The notes under the pieces: generated by a model
Database searches by the model: none
The model's input: only the letters and a program-made list of their open reading frames with translations
What the model was told of the DNA's origin: nothing
Shown here: piece by piece, positions 13,419-57,402 of the stretch
Position numbering within the stretch: the stretch's first letter is position 1
How the letters are laid out: the number at the start of each line of letters is the position of its first letter
Assembly (NCBI RefSeq): GCF_013294015.1
Contig: NZ_JABSNO010000007.1
Coordinates: 1 to 64,000 of the forward strand
Direction of reading: 5' to 3'
Origin: Frigoriflavimonas asaccharolytica
GTDB taxonomy: Bacteria; Bacteroidota; Bacteroidia; Flavobacteriales; Weeksellaceae
DNA length: 64,000 bases
Made by a program: the position numbers and the translations under genes

Positions 13419-14132
13419 TTATTTAAATATTTCTTCCGCTAAAGCGATTGATTCTGGTTTCCCAACATCAATTAAATTAGCTGAATGTTTGTAAGCGTGA
13501 ATTTTTTCTGTGTGCATCATATCCAAATATTCTTCCATTATGGAAAACTTACCTTTCCTTTTAATTTTTTCAAATATTTTGGAATTAATGCAATGTACCC
13601 CACTAAATGCCAAAGCTTTAAAGCCTTTATTAAATTCCGCCAATCTTTGTTCTCCAGTTGCTACATTTAGCCAACCTCGCAAAATGTAATCTTCATTAAA
13701 TAATAATTTCCTACTGCTATTTCTATCTGAAACTGCTAATGTAACGAAATCTTTATTTTTTTTGTGGCATTTGATAAGGTCCGCTATGTCTAGATCCGTC
13801 AAAATATCGGCATTCATTATTAAAAAATCTTCTTCATTTTTCAAATAATTTTGGGCGAAAACCAAACCACCTCCAGTTTCTAGAAGTTCATTTTTTTCAT
13901 CAGAAATATCTATATTGCTTCCGAAGTTATCGTTTTTATTTAAAAATTCTACGATTTGATTTCCAAAGTGATGCACATTAATTACAAAATCGTTGATGCC
14001 AAAACCTTGTAAATACTTAATATTTCTTTCTAAAAGTGGAATACCATTCACCAAAGCCAAAGCTTTTGGATGATGATCTGTAAATGGTTTTAGCCGGGTA
14101 CCTTTTCCGGCGGCAAATATTAAGGCTTTCAT
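13419..14132 (-). CDS. Sugar-phosphate nucleotidyltransferase, MurU-like
   Basis: The 237-residue NTP-transferase has MKALIFAAGKGTRLKPFT (nucleotide-binding loop), HPKALALVNG, LLETGGGLV, FLIMNADILTD (metal Asp) and LIDVGKPESI. Size and motifs fit N-acetylmuramate alpha-1-phosphate uridylyltransferase (MurU) or a mannose-1-phosphate guanylyltransferase-like enzyme. The AmgK-like kinase in the same cluster favours MurU, which would give UDP-MurNAc and bypass de novo synthesis. The substrate is inferred from context. Confidence 0.8.
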   Translation of the reverse strand: MKALIFAAGKGTRLKPFTDHHPKALALVNGIPLLERNIKYLQGFGINDFVINVHHFGNQIVEFLNKNDNFGSNIDISDEKNELLETGGGLVFAQNYLKNEEDFLIMNADILTDLDIADLIKCHKKNKDFVTLAVSDRNSSRKLLFNEDYILRGWLNVATGEQRLAEFNKGFKALAFSGVHCINSKIFEKIKRKGKFSIMEEYLDMMHTEKIHAYKHSANLIDVGKPESIALAEEIFK

Positions 14133-14261: not shown

Positions 14262-14666
14262 TTAATTCAGGTGCAATTGCTCATCATGCCAAAGCGAAAC
14301 TTCTGCGGCTGGAAATTTTTCTTTCACAAATTCCGCAAATTTTATAGCGGAATACACAGACCGATGCTGTCCTCCAGTGCAACCAAAGTTAACTTGTAAA
14401 TGATCAAAATCTCGATCCAAATAATTTTGAATGGTGATTGATGTTAAGTTTTTCACATTTTCAAAGAATTGGGGCATCTCTGTTTGGGTTTCTAGAAAAT
14501 TTTGCACGCCCAAATCGTCGCCACAAAGTTCTTTATATTCTGGCTGCCTTCCTGGATTTAATATACCGCGGCAATCAAAAGCGAAACCGCCACCATTGCC
14601 ACTTGTATCTTTTGGTATACCACCTTTTTTGTAGGAAAAACTGTGGATTTCTATTTTTAAACTCAT
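14262..14666 (-). CDS. RapZ C-terminal domain protein
   Basis: The 134-residue protein matches only the C-terminal half of RapZ (YvcJ): FDCRGILNPGR and FGCTGGQHRSVYSA are the conserved signatures. The N-terminal P-loop kinase domain is absent. In E. coli the RapZ C-terminus binds GlcN6P and regulatory RNA. Here the stand-alone domain lies between the MurU-like and AmgK-like genes, suggesting a sensor or structural role in amino-sugar recycling. Confidence 0.85.
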   Translation of the reverse strand: MSLKIEIHSFSYKKGGIPKDTSGNGGGFAFDCRGILNPGRQPEYKELCGDDLGVQNFLETQTEMPQFFENVKNLTSITIQNYLDRDFDHLQVNFGCTGGQHRSVYSAIKFAEFVKEKFPAAEVSLWHDEQLHLN

Positions 14667-14705: not shown

Positions 14706-14744
14706 ACCATTAAGGTTTGGTTAAGAGATTAAGGGAATTAAGTT
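14706..14744. repeat. Left inverted repeat flanking the GxxExxY gene
   Basis: A 39-bp arm built from ATTAAG units (ACCATTAAGGTTTGGTTAAG...). It is inverted relative to 15236-15275, with about 33 of 39 positions matching. Confidence 0.8.
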
Positions 14745-14763
14745 TTTTGATAAATCAAAAATT

Positions 14764-15168
14764 TCACTCTGGAAGTGAATTAAAATATTCATTTACAAAA
14801 GGTTTCATAGATTTTGTGATGTTTGATGTAAAGAAATTAATCAACAATCCTTGTGGCTTTTTCAAAACTTTCATGTAAGTAAGCAATTGTGCTTCATGAA
14901 CGGGCAAAGTTTCTTCTTGCGCCTTTATTTCGATTACAATACAGTTGTTTACTAATAAATCTACAATTAATTTTGTGGTCATTTGAACTCCGTCATATAT
15001 AATTGGCACAATCATTTGCTGTTGAACCTTGTAACCATTTTTTACTAATTCGTATTTCAAACATTCTTCATAAATACTTTCTAATAATCCTGGACCAAGA
15101 CTTTTGTAAACTTTTATTGCGAGGCCTGTAATTTCATAAGACAACTGTGTTACTTCTTTTCTTGTCAT
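14764..15168 (-). CDS. GxxExxY protein (PDDEXK_3 family)
   Basis: The 134-residue protein has the name motif GLLESIYEECL and the nuclease-like core LIVDLLVNNCIVIEIKA (PD-(D/E)xK-type D...EIK), then EAQLLTYMK. The family is widespread in Bacteroidota and its role is unknown. The gene is precisely bracketed by 39-40 bp inverted repeats made of ATTAAG units and sits inside the amino-sugar recycling cluster. It therefore looks like an inserted, movable unit rather than a cluster member. Confidence 0.85.
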   Translation of the reverse strand: MTRKEVTQLSYEITGLAIKVYKSLGPGLLESIYEECLKYELVKNGYKVQQQMIVPIIYDGVQMTTKLIVDLLVNNCIVIEIKAQEETLPVHEAQLLTYMKVLKKPQGLLINFFTSNITKSMKPFVNEYFNSLPE

Positions 15169-15235
15169 ACTTTAAACAATTTTATTTATGAATATAAAAT
15201 TTTCATTAATTGAGAACTGCTTTTACCTAAGGTAA

Positions 15236-15275
15236 AACCTTAATGAACTTAATTTCTTAACAAAATCTTAATGGT
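15236..15275. repeat. Right inverted repeat flanking the GxxExxY gene
   Basis: A 40-bp arm (AACCTTAATGAACTTAATTT...CTTAATGGT), the inverted counterpart of 14706-14744. The bracketed unit is 570 bp long. Confidence 0.8.
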
Positions 15276-15300: not shown

Positions 15301-16308
15301 TCACCCCTTTAAATTTAATTTAACCTCATCTAATTTCAAACTTAAAATCAATTTTTGCAATTCTGGATAGGATTTCATCTTTTCCCAATTTTCTGCAAAT
15401 TCAACGATGTTTTTCACTCCTTTTGGAATGCTTTCTAAAAAATGTTTTTTCTTTTGTATCAACCCACGGAAACCATATGCACCTAAAACCTGTAAATATC
15501 TTACCAATTGAAGTAAATAGATAGAATTTTGAAGATTTTTTTTTGATTGCTCATCTTGCCATAAATTGATGTAAAATTCTAGCATTTCATTTTTAAATTC
15601 TGCAGAGAAATTGGCTTTTGCTTGGAATAGAAAGGAAATTACATCATACATCGCAGGACCTTTCATCGCAGATTGATAGTCTATAAAATGAACTTCATCT
15701 GTAGAATTCACCATAATGTTTCTGGCTTGAAAATCTCGAATCATCAAGGTTTTTGGTTGCAAACCTTCTACAGATTTTACTAGATTTTCAAAATCTTGCA
15801 GCAGAGATAATTTGTGATATGGCAATTCTAATACATCAATAAACATATTTTTGAAATAGAATAAATCATTTTGAATTGGAAACCGATTGTATTCCTCATA
15901 TTCGAATGTTTGCGAATAGTCTACTTTATTTTCTGTGGCTATCTGAAGCTGGAAAAGTTTTTGCAAAGTTTGCTTCACCAAAGATTTTACTTTTTCATTG
16001 GTTCCATTTTCGGTTATGATTTCTGATAAAGTTTGGTCGCCAACAAAATCTTGCAGATACATTTTGCCATCTTCGGAAATTGCGAGAATAGAAGGTGAAT
16101 TTAAATTTAGACCAGAAAAAATAGTAGAAAAATAGAAAAACGCATTGTTTTCTGCAAGATTTTCATTGTGAGTAATTACGAATTTTTTGCCGTTACTTTC
16201 AAGTATAAAATTGCTGCGTGAGGATCCACTTTGGGGCAAAGTCAATATAGATTCTACTTTTGAATCTGTGCTTGTTTCAAAAAATTGTTTTACAGTTTTT
16301 TCCATCAT
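15301..16308 (-). CDS. Aminoglycoside-phosphotransferase-fold kinase, AmgK-like
   Basis: The 335-residue protein has a kinase fold: MIRDFQARNIMV (catalytic Asp and Asn) and HFIDYQSAMKGPAMYDV (metal Asp). In the known AmgK/MurU pathway this kinase makes MurNAc-1-phosphate, which MurU converts to UDP-MurNAc. The RFPIQNDLFYFK and DFQARN wording is typical of the Bacteroidota AmgK-like group. Two adjacent start Mets (16308, 16305) follow a TATATTTG box at 16318. It is divergent from xrtF. Confidence 0.82.
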   Translation of the reverse strand: MMEKTVKQFFETSTDSKVESILTLPQSGSSRSNFILESNGKKFVITHNENLAENNAFFYFSTIFSGLNLNSPSILAISEDGKMYLQDFVGDQTLSEIITENGTNEKVKSLVKQTLQKLFQLQIATENKVDYSQTFEYEEYNRFPIQNDLFYFKNMFIDVLELPYHKLSLLQDFENLVKSVEGLQPKTLMIRDFQARNIMVNSTDEVHFIDYQSAMKGPAMYDVISFLFQAKANFSAEFKNEMLEFYINLWQDEQSKKNLQNSIYLLQLVRYLQVLGAYGFRGLIQKKKHFLESIPKGVKNIVEFAENWEKMKSYPELQKLILSLKLDEVKLNLKG

Positions 16309-57194: not shown

Positions 57195-57212
57195 CTGGTT
57201 TTTTAAAAATTA

Positions 57213-57394
57213 AGAGCTTGTTTAAATATTTTATAAAAATATTTTTAACCACAAAAGGAACAAAAGAATGAGCTTAAATAATTCTTTTTAAAGTGAAAAT
57301 AAGGCACAATACATTTATTTTTACTTTGAAAAGTGTTTAATTTTCTTAAACTTTTGTTCCTTTTGTGGTTTTAATACAATTTTAAACAAGCTCT
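57213..57394. mobile_element. MITE-like element M2 with inverted ends and flanking AAATTA duplication
   Basis: Outer ends AGAGCTTGTTTAAA / TTTAAACAAGCTCT. Inner arms 57247-57266 and 57351-57370 are perfect 20/20 inverted repeats (AACCACAAAAGGAACAAAAG). AAATTA occurs immediately before (57207-57212) and after (57395-57400). There is no ORF. Related arms recur at 63760-63910. Confidence 0.75.
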
Positions 57395-57402
57395 AAATTA
57401 AA

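Follow-up and report, generated by a model that had tools for sequence, protein, structure and literature searches.

The window, i.e. the whole stretch of 64,000 nucleotides of Frigoriflavimonas asaccharolytica DNA that was analysed, contains a GxxExxY gene enclosed by two inverted arms, the complete gene-plus-arms unit measuring 570 bp (14706-15275) and lying within an operon (Table 1). The arms are 42 nt long each, 83% complementary and separated by 486 nt, in agreement with an earlier note on this DNA, which had described ATTAAG-built inverted ends with about 33 of 39 positions matching and had placed their outer limits correctly. They consist of TTAAG units, usually with A or G in front (RTTAAG), which are spaced by 8-11 nt and all point inward. 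Terminal inverted repeats of the kind expected of classical IS or MITE elements are present at the element, but are composed of internal units. Ranked by length among the inverted repeats that measure 26 nt or more and whose arms are at most 1.5 kb apart, this pair comes second in the window, and the gapped comparison of one flank with the other gave a score of 51 with a maximum of 38 over 100 dinucleotide shuffles. Rfam models at gathering score matched nowhere in the 64-kb window.

Table 1. Coordinates of the GxxExxY unit and of the neighbouring operon genes in the window.
Feature	Position	Strand	Basis or remark
AmgK-like sugar kinase	15301..16308	minus	operon gene preceding the element
Upstream arm (gene sense)	15234..15275	minus	four TTAAG units pointing at the gene, opening with ACCATTAAG
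GxxExxY gene, 134 aa, PD-(D/E)XK nuclease-like	14764..15168	minus	TIGR04256, PF13366, predicted fold
Downstream arm	14706..14747	plus	repeats the upstream arm in inverted form (83%); units point at the gene
RapZ C-terminal-domain gene	14262..14666	minus	operon gene following the element
MurU-like nucleotidyltransferase	13419..14132	minus	next gene in the operon

The product of the gene scores 133.2 bits with TIGR04256 (curated cut-off 35) and therefore belongs to the GxxExxY family; it also matches PF13366 (PDDEXK_3) with 126 bits. The RapZ-C neighbour matches PF22740 (101 bits), the kinase reaches 54 bits with the AmgK model (cut-off 550) and the MurU-like neighbour 145 bits (cut-off 250). 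The label of a MurNAc-recycling cluster is fair, though AmgK and MurU score below threshold. Because the AmgK, RapZ and MurU genes adjoin one another without the GxxExxY gene in 21 of 30 family loci, the gene interrupts an otherwise coherent cluster, as the earlier note had claimed.

The window protein carries the motif G27-E30-Y33. In an alignment with 42 relatives, E30, Y33, D70, E80, K82 and Y98 are invariant in all 43 sequences and Q94 is kept in 31. An AlphaFold2 model (mean pLDDT 96) was compared with the PDB by Foldseek, where SSO0001 (4ic1), which we take to be a Cas4, ranked best (E 1.7e-4), followed by lambda exonuclease (E 4e-3) and, further down, by Argonaute-associated Cas4, Hjc and RecBCD. 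VIA-align superimposed 102 residues of the model on 4ic1 at 4.2 A with Z 8.6, no other chain attaining a Z of 8; since other PD-(D/E)XK proteins follow from Z 7.5 downwards, the exact kinship is not fixed by the fold match. PADLOC returned only weak Cas4 sequence matches (E 7e-4), and neither PDB relatives by sequence nor PHROGs matches were found. The previously proposed PD-(D/E)xK-like core is thus borne out by the PF13366 match, the model and the Foldseek matches, and the gene is predicted to encode a minimal Cas4/RecB/lambda-exonuclease-like nuclease. We know of no function assigned to the GxxExxY family. Purifying selection on the protein is strong, with a median dN/dS of 0.048 for the 74 of 231 pairs with dS in range (dS exceeds 1 in several printed pairs); of the 25 AmgK-site genes used, 22 contain no stops.

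AmgK was found in 115 of 120 family genomes. The gap between AmgK and RapZ holds a GxxExxY gene in 7 of the 30 family loci examined (the window's own counted) and is empty in 21, while RapZ does not lie beside AmgK in two; relatives that lack the gene at this place, for which the earlier note had proposed to look, are accordingly common. The filling of the site is shared between the window and Chryseobacterium-group species, and 26 of 80 named relatives of the window clade sit at the AmgK site. At the empty g21 loci L012, L018, L023, L032 and L033 the outer end of the downstream arm persists, and sequences at L010, L013 and L020 are read as collapsed arm remnants; these remnants are signs of loss. 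No trace of the element is present where AmgK and RapZ overlap by 4 bp (L009, L016, L035) or 11 bp (L031, L034). The AmgK stop codon falls within the first array unit in L017, L029 and L036, and no target-site duplication was recognised by eye at the AmgK junctions. Because the site is common to many species and bears deletion scars in some, the window copy is an old, mostly inherited resident; a recent insertion at this site is ruled out on the same grounds.

Paired arms and clade-specific repeat units

GxxExxY matches were obtained in 65 of 120 genomes of one bacterial family, which had been drawn evenly from a larger group. For the analysis of the arms 116 loci were used, comprising 36 that came from searches, after removal of one duplicate, and 80 picked best-scoring first from the matches listed, most AmgK-site copies and some contig-end copies being omitted. 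Flanks of 300 bp were scored for inverted arms. A score of at least 26 was obtained for 78 of the 116 loci vs 15 of 273 control genes, of at least 30 for 64 vs 3, and of at least 35 for 51 vs none. The 38 loci that do not attain 26 count against a general partnership of gene and arms, and so do nine loci of one clade, which score below 30 (L004, L043, L048, L058, L059, L061, L148, L149, L150). The AT-rich composition of the window region, where TTAAG is a frequent word, might suggest that the arms arose by chance or from base composition; the shuffles, the 273 control genes and the cross-locus comparisons given below refute this, and the explanation retains practically no probability.

Beyond the family, seven of eight plasmid records were read, with gene ends estimated in two that lacked annotation. 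Clear arms surround the gene on plasmids of Gemmatirosa (score 68), Bacteroides finegoldii (45) and Bernardetia (36), and the Treponema and Persicobacter loci show short arm-like stretches below threshold. At the Sphingomonas locus, which lies between fabD and fabG, the only array is upstream of the gene, which speaks against the partnership. No inverted arms were scored at the Fusobacteria plasmid locus (L291), where flanking repeats of about 50 bp look direct rather than inverted by eye.

The units differ between protein clades; the clade words include ATTAAG, CACAAAAG, CACATAGG, CACAAAG, CGCAAAGG, CGAATT, CACAGATT and others. ATTAAG as a universal end of GxxExxY genes is therefore ruled out. 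The suggestion to scan GxxExxY loci for paired ATTAAG ends has to be recast: many loci have paired inverted ends, but in the family sample the word ATTAAG accompanies the window's protein clade. For a quantitative comparison, the upstream arm of one locus was scored against the inverted downstream arm of another, using pairs from different genera and different sites only (11,088 ordered pairs; match at a score of at least 26). Matching arms amount to 6.2% and 5.6% of pairs in the protein-identity classes below 45%, and rise to 9.2% at 45-55%, 17% at 55-65%, 34% at 65-70%, 49% at 70-80% (172 ordered pairs) and 60% above 80% identity (10 pairs). The Mantel correlation between protein and arm likeness is 0.25 and was reached by none of 2000 permutations. 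The arm unit follows the protein across genera and sites. When the two arms of a locus are compared with arms from clade-mates at other sites, the locus's own pair shows the greater likeness in 59 of 79 loci and the lesser in 17; at the AmgK site the corresponding numbers are 17 and 5 of 25.

All 80 named relatives of the window clade were tested, which by record names belong to Chryseobacterium, Kaistella, Flavobacterium, Pedobacter, Chitinophagaceae, Saprospiraceae, Salinivirgaceae and a Chlorobiota assembly. They have 278 inward TTAAG units upstream and 323 downstream of the gene, with 102 and 108 pointing outward. The 54 relatives at sites other than AmgK fall into 14 groups by shared flanks, one of them with 36 loci. 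With one locus taken per group, 9 of 13 testable groups have two or more inward units on each side vs 0 of 19 control genes, and a score of 26 was attained by 8 of the 13. Outward units (29 and 34) nearly equal inward ones (36 and 48) in this one-per-site set, a result that counts against the partnership and is partly due to the fact that several sites hold whole palindromes (e.g. L095). A 16-nt ATTAAG pattern occurs in 10 of 16 genomes having a gene at least 60% identical vs 12 of 104 others (split by hand). In G055, G047 and G109 every match lies at the gene's own arms, as does one match each in G045 and G061, and the 20 matches of G035 resemble copies of a MITE-like unit (of four that were read, two show the full ends). 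The idea that solo ATTAAG arrays depend on the cognate gene is therefore weakly supported, and a strict dependence is rejected.

Seven GxxExxY genes are present in the Frigoriflavimonas genome itself (3.43 Mb, 67 contigs). As judged by eye, six of them possess inverted arms of differing units, namely ATTAAG (window, L001), CACATAAG-like (L002), CACAAAG (L003), CGCAAAG (L005), CACGGATT (L006) and CGAATT (L007), and none were seen at L004. In 100 shuffles each, the arm scores of L001, L002, L005 and L007 lie far over the shuffle maximum, L003 slightly over, L006 slightly under and L004 under it. Two results from this genome argue against the partnership: the arms of L005 match just one other place, and the CACAAAAG palindrome has 45 BLAST matches in about 27 regions (hand count), while L002, the sole gene of that clade, has arms of a variant unit.

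Empty sites and gene-free arm pairs

A clean empty site was found for a copy with CGCAAAGG arms (locus L151 of genome G069). The site is also filled in G088 and G095; in G038 a single bp stands in place of the 548-bp unit (query bases 891-1438 of G069), with flanks 92% and 90-91% identical to those of G069, and in G010 14 bp stand in its place, with flanks of 83-84% identity. The unit is shrunk to a short remnant in G055. No target-site duplication was recognised by eye at the junctions of G038, G069 and G088. At the same site, G079 holds CGCAGATT-type arms around an unrelated ORF, which counts against the partnership; this ORF (L316:1144-1476) would encode a membrane-protein-like product of 110 aa.

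Arms also occur as pairs without the gene. Each of the seven g11 genomes has additional matches to the L151 arms, which amount to about 40 regions by hand count. Among 20 g11 stretches read, in which orthologous sites were counted more than once, 13 are gene-free inverted pairs, mostly of about 190 bp, and 6 are single arms; no unit cluster was detected in stretch L334 by regular expression. One gene-free pair is duplicated in tandem in G079, and another gene-free inverted pair was found in G117 (L257). G038 has arm pairs and no GxxExxY match, a further observation against the partnership. In the Frigoriflavimonas genome the ATTAAG pattern matches six places, of which two (L239, L241) are gene-free inverted pairs, one of the two in L238 is possibly another such pair, and the others are single arrays. 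At the L153 site, the g21 loci L301, L302 and L303 hold by eye gene-free arrays of GGATTT-type units in place of GxxExxY, and in G059, G102 and G119 the L153 downstream arm alone matches many further places.

Gene and repeats therefore form one unit, as the earlier note had supposed from the ends, which is seen in the empty site, the gene-free copies and the clade-specific ends; that the window copy, with its old shared site and scars in relatives, is mobile at present is unsupported or wrong.

Some gene-free palindromes, in the Frigoriflavimonas genome and in G035, are enclosed by a MITE-like unit with AGAGCYTGTTTAAA ends, and may consequently be spread by another transposase, which counts against the partnership. 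In the window, such an element of about 190 bp lies at 57208-57399 with the ends AGAGCTTGTTTAAA/TTTAAACAAGCTCT and contains a gene-free CACAAAAG-unit palindrome at 57247-57370; of its 45 matches in the same genome, two are 94-95% identical, and seven were read. In G035, L252 and L253 are copies of a unit of about 220 bp with AGAGCCTGTTTAAA ends and an ATTAAG palindrome inside. Full AGAGCYTGTTTAAA ends were not found in the two G115 loci tested.

Copies of this kind, together with the other ORF between the CGCAGATT-type arms of G079, would agree with arm pairs being a MITE-like platform that is moved by an unrelated transposase and carries GxxExxY, S23p and other small genes as passengers. A MITE end within 450 bp is, however, present in none of the 116 gene loci, which rules it out as a component of the gene-bearing unit, and such ends are absent from the 20 g11 stretches that were read. 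A passenger, moreover, need not match the unit, which nevertheless goes with the clade of the protein. We consider passive cargo improbable. The gene might also be a resident host gene whose product, a nuclease for repair or defence, regulates its expression by binding the units on both sides; the strong purifying selection, the old shared site and a possible role of the units as protein-binding sites would fit. Such operator arrays would not account for gene-free inverted pairs far from the gene, for the clean empty site or for paralogues with other units in one genome, and repression does not need an inverted array downstream, so that this explanation is given only a slim chance.

Placement in operons and S23p-type genes

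The GxxExxY gene is codirectional with both neighbours in 104 of the 112 callable loci (of 116; 4 uncalled) and differs on one side in the other 8, compared with 28 of 58 ordinary genes of the window (p about 1e-10 vs 104/116). Among the 54 other-site relatives of the window clade, 41 run with both neighbours, 5 with one and 2 antisense to both, while 6 lack a called neighbour. Ordinary genes located between two codirectional genes are, for their part, codirectional in 64 of 68 cases, and in 28 of 33 cases in the window; the preference of GxxExxY is for codirectional surroundings, and the sense placement is for this reason, and in view of the two antisense relatives, less telling. Of 25 stretches with gene-free copies, 16 have codirectional genes on the two sides, 6 divergent and 3 convergent ones (orthologous sites recur). 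The gene-bearing copies are nearly tied to the direction of transcription and the arm pairs are not, which is most simply explained if the gene lives on the operon transcript.

A comparable layout was found at a second gene family. Genes for four-helix-bundle proteins of TIGR02436 (S23p-like) are present in 51 of 60 family genomes, and 70 loci were taken (L258-L287, L349-L388), 69 of which were usable. Inverted arms score at least 26 in 52 and at least 30 in 43 of the 69, and 67 genes are codirectional with both neighbours. The arm units have about 7 nt (e.g. TTAGAAG, CAAGAAC and GGTTGAT by eye), and their likeness tracks that of the proteins when different sites are compared (Mantel r 0.14, attained in none of 2000 permutations, genera not separated). 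According to the relevant passages of a report on Coxiella, an intervening sequence (IVS) of its 23S rRNA encodes S23p, has tandem heptamers upstream of the ORF and is excised as an element by RNase III (PMC4990558). The Coxiella IVS and the TIGR02436 and GxxExxY loci may be read as the same architecture, short of proof for the same mechanism; with this shared layout, the intervening sequences of rRNA would become part of a broader class of elements.

An element acting at the RNA level has to be weighed on this basis, in which pairing of the arms within the transcript would form a hairpin for processing, e.g. by RNase III, and the RNA would be protected or processed by the protein that it encodes. 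The sense placement in operons, the concerted evolution of a locus's own arms, the paired arms of S23p-type genes and the excision described for the Coxiella IVS would all be expected, and in the predicted fold of the element RNA the arms do pair. This fold is, however, not clearly stronger than those of shuffles (z -1.4; 2 of 20 shuffles fold equally well), gene-free copies lie between divergent or convergent genes in 9 of the 25 stretches, and the modelled GxxExxY protein resembles DNA nucleases. The RNA-level explanation is on balance rather unlikely.

A proposed partnership and its comparison with known systems

We give about an even chance to the reading that GxxExxY genes and their arms constitute a REPIN-RAYT-like partnership run by a PD-(D/E)XK nuclease, the window unit being one copy of a widespread element. 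We infer that a GxxExxY protein would bind its clade's own unit, and several unit copies about one helical turn apart suggest that it might do so as an oligomer. It would then cut or trim DNA at the paired arms, probably when these are folded or single-stranded, and the cutting would let arm pairs move and be copied or kept, comparable to the supposed role of RAYT transposases for REPINs. The gene copy would be mostly vertically inherited and read from the host operon transcript, and the gene-free arm pairs would spread. More tentatively, and with a probability that we place below an even chance, GxxExxY proteins could be reprogrammed solo Cas4-like nucleases, each clade of which reads its own short DNA word and both copies and keeps palindromic arrays of it in bacterial genomes, with S23p proteins running a parallel version. 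In either case, the clade-linked units turn the question of GxxExxY function into a direct test of cognate vs non-cognate arms. If the protein reads the unit, the clades would provide a ready-made nuclease-to-word code, and many dispersed palindromes would gain a cause.

In the open-licence PMC literature, two articles name GxxExxY, once each and in passages that are not about repeats, six arm-unit strings do not occur, and no article on these arrays was apparent from titles and the beginnings of abstracts. REPIN-RAYT systems are described, in the passages available of two reports, as a mostly single-copy gene of nuclease type next to short repeats that are dispersed as inverted pairs, form tandem clusters and co-evolve with the protein (PMC3116915, PMC8266576). 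As far as these passages go, GxxExxY genes resemble them in being flanked by cognate repeats that are also dispersed as inverted doublets, and in a repeat type that co-evolves with the protein. They differ in that RAYT is an HUH single-strand transposase, whereas family membership and predicted fold make GxxExxY a PD-(D/E)XK hydrolase: its matches in Pfam and NCBIfam are confined to PD-(D/E)XK/GxxExxY models, with no HUH Y1 transposase model among them, and its best structural matches are nucleases of that superfamily. Furthermore, the GxxExxY arms are arrays of direct units spaced by 8-11 nt, not one short palindrome with a GTAG-type tag, and stand inverted on both sides of the gene. Because its enzyme is of another class, the GxxExxY system is not a member of the REPIN-RAYT systems.

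With the S23p IVS, as portrayed in the passages on Coxiella (PMC4990558), the window element has in common a short ORF in a self-folding RNA element, its sense orientation in the transcript and short tandem repeats, there heptamers, beside the ORF; it differs in lying in a protein operon instead of rRNA, in its protein family and in its gene-free dispersed copies. The predicted fold and the D..ExK core resemble those of Cas4, lambda exonuclease and RecB domains. The Fe-S cluster of Cas4 is held by four cysteines, whereas the window protein of 134 aa has two, and its gene adjoins no cas genes but AmgK-, RapZ- and MurU-like neighbours. By enzyme and repeat anatomy, we found no described kind that fits GxxExxY genes plus arms, and the pattern speaks for a type of system, not described so far, that spreads or keeps repeats. 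If the more tentative reading of solo Cas4-like nucleases is true, it would represent a new class of repeat-propagating systems with a natural protein-word code.
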